From positions 62,001 to 126,000 of the forward strand of contig CAMJXD010000004.1 of NCBI GenBank assembly GCA_946409635.1: 64,000 bases of DNA, given 5' to 3'. Source of the DNA: an uncultured Prevotellaceae bacterium. GTDB lineage: Bacteria; Bacteroidota; Bacteroidia; Bacteroidales; Muribaculaceae. The notes under the pieces are model-generated. The model made no database searches. It was not told where the DNA came from and saw only the letters and a program-made list of their open reading frames with translations. Positions 61,185 to 64,000 of this stretch are shown one piece after another; positions within the stretch are counted from its first letter, which is position 1; every line of letters begins with the position of its first letter. The translations under genes and the position numbers were made by a program.

Positions 61185-61201
61185 CCGTACAAAAAACAAC
61201 A

Positions 61202-61254
61202 GAATACTCTGAATAATCTGAAATTGTGATGTGACGTGATAATTCAGAGTATTC
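61202..61254. terminator. Hairpin between FAD oxidoreductase and the AT-rich cluster
   Basis: GAATACTCTGAAT (61202-61214) and its exact reverse complement (61242-61254) form a 13-bp stem with a 27-base loop. It lies between convergent genes at the border of the AT-rich block, so a terminator role is likely. Confidence 0.55.
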
Positions 61255-61278
61255 AGTTGTTAATCAAGACAATTGATT

Positions 61279-61605
61279 TCAGTTGAGGATTTGATAGTGG
61301 AGAGCACCTGAATTGTCAGCGATGACAGTCATTTCATGTGTTTCACCATTGGCAGACAGTATGCCGTGGTAACGGTTTCCCATCTCGTGAACCAAGCTGA
61401 TGTCAGACACCTCAACTCCATCCTTGGCCAGCATTTTGCGGATGATGTCTTGTAGCAAGTCAATTGTCACAATCGAGTTGGGACCATGCTTATGCATGAT
61501 ATACATGAGCATGAGCGACTTCCCAATATCAGACTTGTTGTAAAACTGAATGATTGCGATAATTATGAATATGACGATAACAAAACCAAGAACAATAATG
61601 ACCAT
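61279..61605 (-). CDS. Small membrane-anchored protein of unknown function
   Basis: A 108-aa protein. A strong N-terminal membrane segment (MVIIVLGFVIVIFIIIAIIQ) is followed by a short helical part (IVTIDLLQDIIRKMLAKDG) and a beta-rich end (HEMTVIADNSGALHYQI). No family was recognised. It is 7 bp downstream of the kinase-like gene on the same strand and AT-rich like it, so it belongs to the same operon. A role in export, immunity or anchoring of a peptide product is conceivable but only a guess. Confidence 0.65.
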   Translation of the reverse strand: MVIIVLGFVIVIFIIIAIIQFYNKSDIGKSLMLMYIMHKHGPNSIVTIDLLQDIIRKMLAKDGVEVSDISLVHEMGNRYHGILSANGETHEMTVIADNSGALHYQILN

Positions 61606-61612
61606 AATTGTT

Positions 61613-62440
61613 TCAGACTTTTAGTGATGATAGGTTAAATCCATATTCATCAAATATGTTATCAACTGCCGAGTAATCTATTTGTTCATTAAGACTCCAG
61701 GCTATATGATTTATGATATCATAAGTCTGTATGATCTCTCGTGTAAAGAGTTCCTTGGCATGTCTTCGATCATCGTCAGAGTCATAGGGGTATTGAGGAC
61801 TGCAAGACAATTCAAAATCTAATAGTTCTAAAGCCCATGTATAGTTCTGAGGATGAATTGCGTTATGTAATATCTGATTGTCATGAAGCGTTCTGAGGTT
61901 GTGAACGAGAATGTCAGCTGCTATAAGATATGGTTTATTGAATTTATGAGAGGTGGGCCATTTCTTGACTGTATCGAATAATAAATCTTGTGGCATATAT
62001 GCCGTATCACATATTCGGTAAGGACATTCAACTGAATACTGTAATAAGACTGGATGTAATCTGCACATGTTAGGCAGAATTATATCAGTATCCAACTCAA
62101 CAACACATTCCATCGTATTCGTTTTTATCCCTAAACCTGAGATTTCTAATCCTAGATTATAATCTCTTATGGCATCTTTTCTCAAGAGCAAACCCCATGT
62201 GTCATTACCAAATTCACCTGAATTCAGAAATCTATGTTGAGTATAGCTCAATCCATTCCCTTTGCTTACAATGTATTTGCCATTGCATATCGACATAACA
62301 TAGCTTCGACCATGATGGGGACTAATAAGATACATGAGCTTACTTCCATTAATATCTCTAAGTAGTGGATGCACTTTTTCACATGTATCATTCATGCACA
62401 ATATTTGATAATTGCATTCCGACGCACTAATTGTATTCAT
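61613..62440 (-). CDS. Kinase/SelO-like protein next to a radical SAM gene, unknown function
   Basis: A 275-aa cytosolic protein, starting MNTISASECNYQILC (an upstream Met at 62467 is less likely). No close family was recognised, but three segments recall kinase-like folds of the SelO/HipA kind. A Lys strand (YIVSKGNGLSYTQH) lies near 58, RDYNLGLEISGLGIKTN near 95, and a loop like a catalytic loop (ILHNAIHPQNYTW ... LLDFELS) near 190-210. The usual catalytic Asp would be His in HPQN, so activity is uncertain. It follows the small peptide gene, separated by a strong hairpin. Confidence 0.55.
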   Translation of the reverse strand: MNTISASECNYQILCMNDTCEKVHPLLRDINGSKLMYLISPHHGRSYVMSICNGKYIVSKGNGLSYTQHRFLNSGEFGNDTWGLLLRKDAIRDYNLGLEISGLGIKTNTMECVVELDTDIILPNMCRLHPVLLQYSVECPYRICDTAYMPQDLLFDTVKKWPTSHKFNKPYLIAADILVHNLRTLHDNQILHNAIHPQNYTWALELLDFELSCSPQYPYDSDDDRRHAKELFTREIIQTYDIINHIAWSLNEQIDYSAVDNIFDEYGFNLSSLKV

Positions 62441-62468
62441 AATTAATTTTATTTTTTGAGGAATCAAA

Positions 62469-62508
62469 AGCGGATATAGGCATCAAAACTATCATGCCTA
62501 TATCCGCT
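62469..62508 (-). terminator. Strong hairpin between the peptide gene and the kinase-like gene
   Basis: On the minus strand AGCGGATATAGGCAT and ATGCCTATATCCGCT pair perfectly (15 bp) around a 10-base loop and are followed by TTTTGATT. It lies 16 bp after the stop of the peptide gene. It probably works as a partial terminator, making the peptide message more abundant than the genes behind it. Confidence 0.82.
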
Positions 62509-62524
62509 ATGGCATCAATGTTGT

Positions 62525-62629
62525 TTAGAAGCTACGATACATAATACCGCATGAGGGCTGACTTGTCTTTGCGCAATTTGACATAGTCACTACCTTTGAT
62601 GCCTTGCTAATCTTTAAATCTACGTTCAT
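62525..62629 (-). CDS. Candidate RiPP precursor peptide (34 aa)
   Basis: A short frame between the radical SAM gene and the hairpin, on the same strand as both. It starts MNVDLKISKASK and ends with a C-terminal part CAKTSQPSCGIMYRSF, with Cys at 19 and 27. The N-terminal half is Lys/Ser/Val-rich and could serve as leader; the Cys-containing end is the likely core. No double-Gly site is present. Evidence is the size, the Cys pair, the radical SAM neighbour 63 bp upstream and the terminator-like hairpin just after it. It could also be a chance frame. Confidence 0.6.
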   Translation of the reverse strand: MNVDLKISKASKVVTMSNCAKTSQPSCGIMYRSF

Positions 62630-62692
62630 AGTATTTACAGATTTAATGTTATAGGACTATTTCTTGGGGAAGTCCGTTTACCCACCTACCAT

Positions 62693-64000
62693 TTAACTCT
62701 TATTTGTTCTTCCTTCGTTATTAAAGGAAAAAACTCTCTTGATCTGCTGCAAATCAGTTGTCGTTATATGCTGAAGCCTTTCTTTTATTTCCGTTGGATT
62801 AAGCGGTCTCTCTCCGTTCATCAATCGATGTGCTAATCGAAAGCGACACTTTGCCATATAACAGTTGTTTTCCCCAGCCTTGGTGACATCGCCGTTTTCT
62901 GAGTAATTGTTTCCAGCGCACAGGTTGCAGTAGTCACAGTAATCATGCTTGCCACAATCCTCATATTGCTTTAATGTCAACATCTGCCATTCTGAGAGTG
63001 ATTCACTTCGCAGTATTTCATCAATATGGCTGTCCTTCAAGTTGCCAAAAGATTGATGAAAAGCGCAACATGGGATTAAATCTCCATCAGGTGTGATGCA
63101 AAAAGTGTTGTAACCAGCACCGCAGGCATTAATTGTCATCAGACGTGGTTGTCCTCCGTAATTGGGTGCCTCTTTTCCCACATACATCGGGGTGTTGTCG
63201 TCTTGAAGGACAATATCCATCATTTCAGGCGTCAACCTTATGTAATGGCTGGCGCATTTGTCACCTTCAATAGAGTCTGTGATATTAAGTTCATACTGAA
63301 CAGGGAGACCATATTTCCTTCCCAGATCACCAACAGTATAATAATTCTTCACATTCTGTCTCATCACACAGCATTTAATCACTGTTGGCACTCCTAGTGA
63401 TGACAGTTGTTCAATAACAGAAATAGATTTCTGCCATGATCCATTTATACGTGTAATGGCATCGTGAGTATCTGCATCACCGCTATAAATAGATATTTCA
63501 ACTGTACGAGGGAAATAGTTCGCTAATCTTTCAACATCATTAATTAATCGTTGCCCATTGGTATAAATATCGGTAGCTATTCCTTTTTGGTATAAGTAGT
63601 CGATAATCTCCCATGAGTCGGGCTTAGAAAAAGGATCGCCACCAGAAAGACATACTTTTGTAAGACCCTGTTCAATCAACTCATCAATTATGCGCTGGTA
63701 GTCACCGAGTGATAACTCTTGAGGGCTGCTTCTATAGCTCACTTCATCATCATTCCTGGTTGCTCCAATATTATAGCAATGGATACATTTCTCTGAGCAG
63801 TTATAGGTAAGTTCCATCATTACACTGGTAATTCCGCCCGCCTTTTCTGTGTAATCCATTTCAGCATTACTTATCGCTAAAGGCAGTTTTTCTTTTGTTG
63901 TTTTGACCAAAGAATGGACATCTTTTAATCTTCTATCAGCGATAGATTTCCGATAACTCTCAATTTCATCATTTGAGGGTTTATGATTGGTTATTAATTG
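62693..64000 (-). CDS. Radical SAM/SPASM peptide-maturase-like protein (N-terminus cut by window edge)
   Basis: 435 residues are visible, and the frame is still open at the last base of the window, so the true start lies outside. The TTG at 63910 is not a required start. The radical SAM cluster motif is CSEKCIHC at 63776-63799, followed by LSGGDPFSKPDSWEII. The C-terminal SPASM domain has GAGYNTFCITPDGDLIPCC and the Cys set CGKHDYCDYCNLCAG for auxiliary iron-sulfur clusters. Such proteins crosslink Cys or other side chains in ribosomal peptides. The small two-Cys peptide gene lies immediately downstream, which supports that role. Confidence 0.88.
   Translation of the reverse strand, partial: QLITNHKPSNDEIESYRKSIADRRLKDVHSLVKTTKEKLPLAISNAEMDYTEKAGGITSVMMELTYNCSEKCIHCYNIGATRNDDEVSYRSSPQELSLGDYQRIIDELIEQGLTKVCLSGGDPFSKPDSWEIIDYLYQKGIATDIYTNGQRLINDVERLANYFPRTVEISIYSGDADTHDAITRINGSWQKSISVIEQLSSLGVPTVIKCCVMRQNVKNYYTVGDLGRKYGLPVQYELNITDSIEGDKCASHYIRLTPEMMDIVLQDDNTPMYVGKEAPNYGGQPRLMTINACGAGYNTFCITPDGDLIPCCAFHQSFGNLKDSHIDEILRSESLSEWQMLTLKQYEDCGKHDYCDYCNLCAGNNYSENGDVTKAGENNCYMAKCRFRLAHRLMNGERPLNPTEIKERLQHITTTDLQQIKRVFSFNNEGRTNKS

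Follow-up and report, generated by a model that had tools for sequence, protein, structure and literature searches.

SPASM enzymes that carry recognition element (RRE) domains for ribosomally synthesized and post-translationally modified peptides (RiPPs) form thioethers or carbon-carbon bonds on their precursors, and those of the pyrroloquinoline quinone (PQQ) and mycofactocin pathways involve a Tyr, which the mycofactocin enzyme decarboxylates and then joins to Val (PMC8326336, in the part available to us). In the thioviridamide and kintamdin systems, a kinase-fold protein judged inactive (TvaE and KinH, respectively) acts on the precursor jointly with another enzyme (PMC9415263, excerpt). 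Radical S-adenosylmethionine (SAM) RiPP clusters mined from Bacteroidales with BAGEL4 contain precursors with a GG motif and mostly PCAT transporters (PMC10352776, excerpt). Here we describe a locus at positions 61279-64000 of a stretch of 64,000 nucleotides (the window) from an uncultured Prevotellaceae bacterium, in which a radical SAM/SPASM enzyme gene is followed on the minus strand by a gene for a tiny peptide and a gene for a SelO-like (kinase-like) protein. These three genes recur in other genomes, and we consider it probable that they represent a small RiPP-type radical SAM peptide-modification locus with a SelO-like accessory protein, the chemistry of which is predicted. Radical SAM RiPP loci are already known; the SelO-like partner appears to be the new element. 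A first-pass annotation of the sequence had found this partner unfamiliar for such systems, and within the partly available literature that we searched no SelO or pseudokinase was described with a radical SAM RiPP, although the combination may be listed in the radical SAM RiPP atlas cited in PMC10885120.

The enzyme gene (62693-64000, minus strand) is cut by the window end. On the contig, the full gene (L003:2694-4259) extends 258 bases past 64000 and encodes 521 residues (P0001). The protein matched both the radical SAM family (PF04055, E 1.6e-20) and the SPASM family (PF13186, E 1.4e-9) over the cut-offs, and it consists of an N-terminal winged-helix-like domain of ~110 residues, a radical SAM core with the CxxxCxxC motif and a SPASM domain with its cluster cysteines. 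Cys 154, 158, 161, 379, 397, 435, 441, 444 and 447 are invariant in the 15 aligned relatives, and the seventh SPASM cysteine is retained in 14 of them. When the enzyme was compared with NCBIfam, none of the best 25 of 60 models reached its cut-off; the best matches were heme b synthase (AhbD), NirJ2, TIGR04053 and the mycofactocin maturase, with 89-92 bits against cut-offs of 265-500. The first-pass annotation had named membership of a family with a known non-peptide substrate as the finding that would speak against its reading, and no such family listed reaches its cut-off. Among the PADLOC anti-phage models, matches of the enzyme were limited to those for viperin and to its radical SAM region (best E 9.6e-16), and the SelO-like protein matched none.

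The first ~110 residues of the enzyme are conserved. A search for a PqqD-like RRE, the leader-binding domain, gave no match in 15 of the enzymes or in the bacterium's own genome. Against the N-terminal part of a PqqD-matching enzyme, the domain aligned weakly in the expected part (E 0.029, probability 1.7%), and it may be a diverged RRE. The genome G028 contains two adjoining radical SAM/SPASM genes distantly related to P0001 (L021, G028:C6:5000-20000), one of them with a PqqD domain, and this pair may be a further locus for peptide modification within the same genus. G028 was left out of the enzyme count, as it holds only distant paralogues at 25-27% identity.

In all 17 genomes with the enzyme, a short open reading frame (ORF) was found on the same strand beside the enzyme gene, as the first-pass annotation had seen for the window; its start is 11-346 bases 3' of the enzyme stop in the 16 loci measured. 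In the window, this ORF occupies 62525-62629 on the minus strand and encodes a peptide of 34 residues with two cysteines, MNVDLKISKASKVVTMSNCAKTSQPSCGIMYRSF. A profile of 16 peptides yielded one strong match per genome in 17 of 17 (E at most 2.9e-11), each beside the enzyme gene, and all other matches had E values of at least 0.0066. Since 16 of those 17 peptides were themselves in the profile, the search was repeated with peptides of the window genus only. This profile matched the place beside the enzyme gene in seven of nine genomes outside the genus (E 5.5e-19 to 3.3e-6). It matched only the leader part in G604 (E 0.33) and nothing at that place in G610, and these two were therefore counted as peptides by position and a leader-like start only. 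In 120 relatives, the 16-row profile matched the same six genomes that carry the enzyme and none of the 114 others.

The peptide genes show conservation at the codon level. In ten genes of equal length, the proportion of synonymous differences (pS) was 0.728 versus 0.345 for nonsynonymous ones (pN), and differences at the third codon position reached 0.58 compared to 0.42 and 0.32 at the other two. The first-pass annotation had considered variable peptide cores. Instead, 14 of 16 uninterrupted peptides share the motif C-x7-C-G-x-x-[Y/W]-R, including its C-terminal part C-G-x-x-[Y/W]-R. All 16 contain Cys27, 14 contain Cys19, and 15 have Glu or Gln at position 24; Trp replaces Tyr in the peptide of G485, and the core of the window peptide reads C-x7-C-G-x-x-Y-R-S. 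The leader would correspond approximately to residues 1-17, and two cases, G604 and more weakly G610, keep the leader-like N-terminal part while the core differs. Judged by its position and conservation, the peptide is a probable precursor, which the radical SAM enzyme probably modifies chemically.

A hairpin follows the peptide stop directly. In the window, it is a 40-base palindrome at 62469-62508 (minus strand) with two 15-nt arms that are 100% complementary, and its folding z is -6.25. The same arrangement was observed in 16 of 17 loci, with z from -2.0 to -8.4 against shuffles (70 nt), the exception being G604 (z -0.2). Control stretches, taken from the final 70 nt of each peptide gene and each enzyme gene, gave mean z of -0.7 (17 genes) and -1.1 (12 genes), respectively. 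The stem sequences differ between loci, except among near relatives. The hairpin is likely to act as an mRNA 3' end or as an attenuator between the peptide gene and the SelO-like gene.

The third recurring gene, for the SelO-like protein, is located at 61613-62440 on the minus strand. It encodes 275 residues from the ATG at 62440 or 284 residues from a TTG at 62467, and the ATG is the likelier start because the starts of the relatives align there. The first-pass annotation had called the product kinase- or SelO-like, and the comparisons bear this out in part by sequence profile and in part by structure. The Pfam SelO models gave no match for 12 members at E values up to 10, nor did the NCBIfam SelO model for the window protein (P0002), whereas E. 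coli SelO, the positive control, scored 513 and 1032 bits against the SelO models. A likeness drawn from the single E. coli sequence was rejected as not significant, with a score of 16.1 compared to 14.1 and 13.7 for two unrelated E. coli controls. A profile of nine SelO sequences aligned with the profile of the SelO-like proteins in register with a score of 25.9, a weak match of low probability. This score was reached by 0 of 100 column-shuffled profiles but by 13 of 200 shuffles of 10-column blocks; reversed profiles scored 16.0 and 15.3, and comparisons of the enzyme profile with SelO and with the kinase-like profile gave 15.5 and 18.8, respectively. Through the same low-probability alignment, four of the six residues of the flipped-ATP site of SelO (K113, E136, R176, R183, N253 and D262) are identical in 12 of 12 members; E136 is changed conservatively to Asp and R176 to Tyr, and the Asp before N253 is a Gln. 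Six of the seven best structural matches carry SelO or YdiU in their titles, and the remaining one is listed as 'uncharacterized protein'. The protein probably belongs to the SelO fold in a shortened form, with most of the SelO-type nucleotide site retained.

The SelO-like protein was found in 12 of the 17 enzyme genomes. In the order sample of 393 genomes, it was found in five, all of them among the seven enzyme carriers; the chance of this co-occurrence is 2.8e-10 if genomes were independent, an assumption that does not hold. It was not found in G014, G034, G213, G604 and G610. The locus of G213 is split over contigs, and the contig of G610 ends 316 bases past the enzyme gene, but the whole G610 genome was searched for the protein. 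G604 and G610 are also the two genomes with a changed peptide core. G014 and G034 instead have a linked gene for an M42 aminopeptidase (PF05343, E 1.7e-82 and 7.6e-82); in these two members of the genus it follows the peptide gene at L019:6419-7393 and L020:9685-10668, and it is a possible alternative partner. A second match to the SelO-like profile, weak and away from the locus, was seen in G715 (C1:58229-58513, E 5.3e-4).

A SelO-family gene was also noticed on a plasmid of Polaromonas sp. E3S (L093), where it overlaps by four bases a gene annotated as a SagB/ThcOx-family dehydrogenase, an enzyme type that is known from a different class of RiPPs. This overlap may be an independent hint that SelO relatives sit in peptide pathways.

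The locus is scattered among genomes of Bacteroidales. The enzyme was found in 6 of 101 relatives, 10 of 397 family genomes and 7 of 393 order genomes, 17 genomes overall, as the sampled sets overlap. In a class-level draw of 395 genomes, which also included genomes of the order, the bacterium's own genome was the sole match at a threshold of E 1e-60, and a scan of genome contigs found one locus, in the uncultured Prevotellaceae bacterium RUG497. A plasmid-borne system was rejected, with no match for the enzyme in 72,556 plasmid records (E 1e-20), and so was a viral one, with none of the 51 pattern matches to viral contigs confirmed. When the ORF lists of the loci were inspected by eye, no recurring transporter gene was seen beside the core genes, and neither a redox-enzyme gene nor a peptidase gene recurs among the loci. 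Such neighbors do occur on the other strand at single loci, namely a MatE transporter (L020), an EamA transporter (L046) and Fe-S/LUD proteins (L037). Defense-type genes in the PADLOC sense lie near two loci, a Fic-like protein and AbiEii at L047:9579-12669 and an Mrr-like nuclease at L050:7452-8129. Three interrupted copies were observed: the enzyme gene of RUG497/G297 (L022:8001-9566) consists of two ORFs in the same frame with an in-frame stop between them, and in-frame stops are also present in the peptide gene of G412 (L034:7673-7777) and in a piece of the enzyme gene of G213 (L038:4085-4969). These copies may be assembly errors or decay.

One pair of genomes from a single genus, G750 and G604, allows the two halves of the enzyme to be compared. 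Between the two enzymes, the identity per 25-residue block is 80-100% over residues 12-311, with 45% over the first 11 residues, and it is 32-64% from there to residue 511. By domain, the identity is 85% for the N-terminal domain, 94% for the barrel, 46% for residues 321-378 and 52% for SPASM. The G604 peptide shares seven of its first 14 residues with that of G750, and the remainder agrees at 3 of 20 positions as aligned by eye; the peptide is without CGxxYR, and the locus is without a SelO-like gene and a 3' hairpin. This single case is as would be expected if leader reading is a task of the N-terminal half, whereas the SPASM half and the partner go with the core. The C-terminal half of the G604 enzyme could have diverged fast rather than been exchanged.

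Taken together, these features suggest a possible course of events. The mRNA segment ended by the hairpin would allow the 34-residue peptide to be made in excess over its neighbors. The enzyme would bind the leader, perhaps by its N-terminal domain, and its radical SAM centre and full SPASM domain would introduce an intramolecular crosslink in the C-G-x-x-[Tyr/Trp]-Arg segment. Arg-Tyr crosslinks and three-residue cyclophanes are known products of radical SAM enzymes. Two kinds of crosslink, a carbon-based one at the aromatic-Arg pair and a thioether formed by the invariant Cys27, have about the same likelihood. The target of the SelO-like protein is probably this same peptide: the protein would either be a nucleotidyl (AMP) transferase and activate a hydroxyl or a carboxyl, or bind the peptide as a pseudokinase partner. 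With a core that is conserved, not diversified, and no recurring transporter gene, a bacteriocin is less likely as the product than a cofactor or signal inside the cell.

A bolder version of this proposal is a new RiPP class with a two-enzyme logic that would be without a described precedent, in which the radical SAM enzyme crosslinks Cys-Gly-x-x-Tyr/Trp-Arg, a dedicated, shortened SelO-type enzyme adenylylates the peptide at a hydroxyl or at the C-terminal carboxylate, and the product is a conserved intracellular cofactor or signal. We put it forward tentatively and regard it, with all its parts, as rather unlikely. To our knowledge, an adenylylating SelO-type enzyme here would be the first case of a SelO relative that serves in biosynthesis, and if true, the SelO fold would gain a job in making peptides. 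The compact three-gene system and its natural same-genus pair are suited to finding out where in a SPASM enzyme the core is read.

The first-pass annotation had proposed the sactipeptide/ranthipeptide type for the locus. In such a reading, the enzyme would form thioether links at Cys19 and/or Cys27, and the SelO-like protein would be incidental. The invariance of Cys27 and the near invariance of Cys19 agree with such links, and the sactipeptide maturase models AlbA, StsB and SkfB are among the weak matches of the enzyme. These models were far under their cut-offs, with 69 of 850, 66 of 625 and 46 of 300 bits, respectively, whereas AhbD, NirJ2 and mycofactocin models scored higher and the PqqE model similarly (63 bits). 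Moreover, the best-conserved part of the core outside Cys-Gly is the aromatic-Arg pair. The assignment finds no support from the family models listed, and we consider this reading, with an incidental SelO-like protein, somewhat less likely than not.

It is also conceivable, though doubtful, that the peptide is not a target of the SelO-like protein at all, and that this protein regulates the enzyme or another protein of the cell or its gene is simply carried along. In favor are its absence from five of the 17 genomes and the M42 aminopeptidase linked instead in two of them. On the other side, the protein was never found without the enzyme in the 393 order genomes, and it is missing from both genomes with a changed core.

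We regard a small molecule of the mycofactocin or PQQ type as unlikely. In such a pathway, the C-terminal CGxxYR would be crosslinked and excised and the remainder discarded. The C-terminal end of MftA is CGVY. The conserved core would fit, as would the missing recurrent transporter beside the core genes, the M42 aminopeptidase gene in two genomes and the rank of the mycofactocin maturase model MftC (89 of 265 bits) among the best weak matches. However, conservation extends to Cys19 and to the spacing of seven residues, neither of which would be needed by a short C-terminal product, and the other-strand MatE, EamA and Fe-S/LUD genes occur at single loci without any redox-enzyme or peptidase gene that recurs. 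That the 34-residue ORF is a chance or regulatory one and the enzyme has a non-peptide substrate, as its two best weak matches to the heme-pathway enzymes AhbD and NirJ2 might be taken to indicate, is very improbable in view of the position, frame, codon-level conservation and genome-wide uniqueness of the peptide.

The modification of the peptide by the radical SAM enzyme, with the SelO-like protein as accessory, remains our preferred reading. The window is part of a 155-kb contig (C4; CAMJXD010000004.1) in a draft genome of 2.57 Mb in 134 contigs. The four minus-strand ORFs in one direction and the lower GC content reported by the first-pass annotation were both found. The region 61279-64000 has a GC content of 0.384 compared to 0.537 in the rest of the window. 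When 293 equally long stretches were sampled there at 200-base steps, none was as GC-poor (minimum 0.491). On the contig, this low-GC island extends from about L003:1250 to 5400, beyond the window end. The hairpin border that had been placed at 61202-61254 corresponds to a 24-nt inverted repeat at 61195-61261 with 92% complementarity. Since it is flanked by two convergent genes, the repeat is most simply read as their shared 3' terminator, and it probably also marks the border of the island.

The fourth ORF (61279-61605, minus strand) is in the same operon and encodes a protein of 108 residues with a hydrophobic N-terminus, which the first-pass annotation had counted as a small membrane protein of the system. 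It is not conserved: among the stretches that were read, a clear match was found only in RUG497 (L022; G297 is apparently the same record), with 95% identity, and the protein is probably outside the core system. Reading the contig past 64000 revealed a gene for a Sel1-repeat protein of 193 residues (L003:4262-4843) upstream of the enzyme gene. Its only clear match in the same stretches was again in RUG497/G297, with 90% identity; an additional weak match was found in L019 (36% over 75 residues, E 5e-5). The four-gene operon was thus rejected as a unit. The gene order that recurs contains three genes, not four, and these three are conserved together in most carriers, the point on which the first-pass annotation had made its reading depend. 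Sel1-repeat proteins directly adjoin the core genes in three loci (L036:4852-6273, L020:7052-7570 and L003:4262-4843), the match in L020 having an E value of 0.0015, under the cut-off of Pfam.

The block L003:1277-6129, which starts at 61276 in the window, runs past 64000 and includes the next gene (234 residues), is 93-96% identical to L022 of RUG497, whereas the flanking DNA is only 80-85% identical. This difference suggests that the island block was recently exchanged. Upstream of the operon and past the window end, a 231-nt stretch (L003:4940-5170) has a folding z of -5.1 against shuffles. It has no Rfam match, short pieces of it match L047, L049 and L019, and it may be a small dispersed element. 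An Rfam scan of L003:1100-6400 gave nothing credible, its two mir-8536 matches having an E value of 0.5 and a score of 22 against a gathering score of 100.

As in the sactipeptide and ranthipeptide systems (AlbA, SkfB, StsB, CteB and PapB), an enzyme with a radical SAM core, a SPASM or twitch domain and an N-terminal domain lies beside a small Cys-containing precursor. The present locus differs from them in its two cysteines, the conserved aromatic-Arg pair, the SelO-like partner and the lack of a recurring transporter gene. With mycofactocin (MftA/MftC) and PQQ (PqqA/PqqE/PqqD), it has in common a conserved, non-diversifying precursor with a Tyr near the C-terminus, whereas the N-terminal domain is fused to the enzyme here, the core has two Cys, residues follow the Tyr, and no cofactor-pathway genes recur. 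The Bacteroidales clusters of PMC10352776 come from the same order and combine a radical SAM enzyme with a precursor; a SelO-like partner is not mentioned in the 12 of 33 places of that paper that were available. With TvaE and KinH, the likeness is a kinase-fold partner, here a predicted one, next to a second enzyme. The second enzyme there is an HFCD-like flavoprotein decarboxylase and SelO is not mentioned in the available excerpt (PMC9415263), whereas here it is a radical SAM enzyme. Finally, the SelO/YdiU protein AMPylases (PF02696) have 478 residues in E. coli, compared to 275 here, and the present protein goes unrecognised by the Pfam and NCBIfam SelO models and is tied to a radical SAM enzyme and its peptide.

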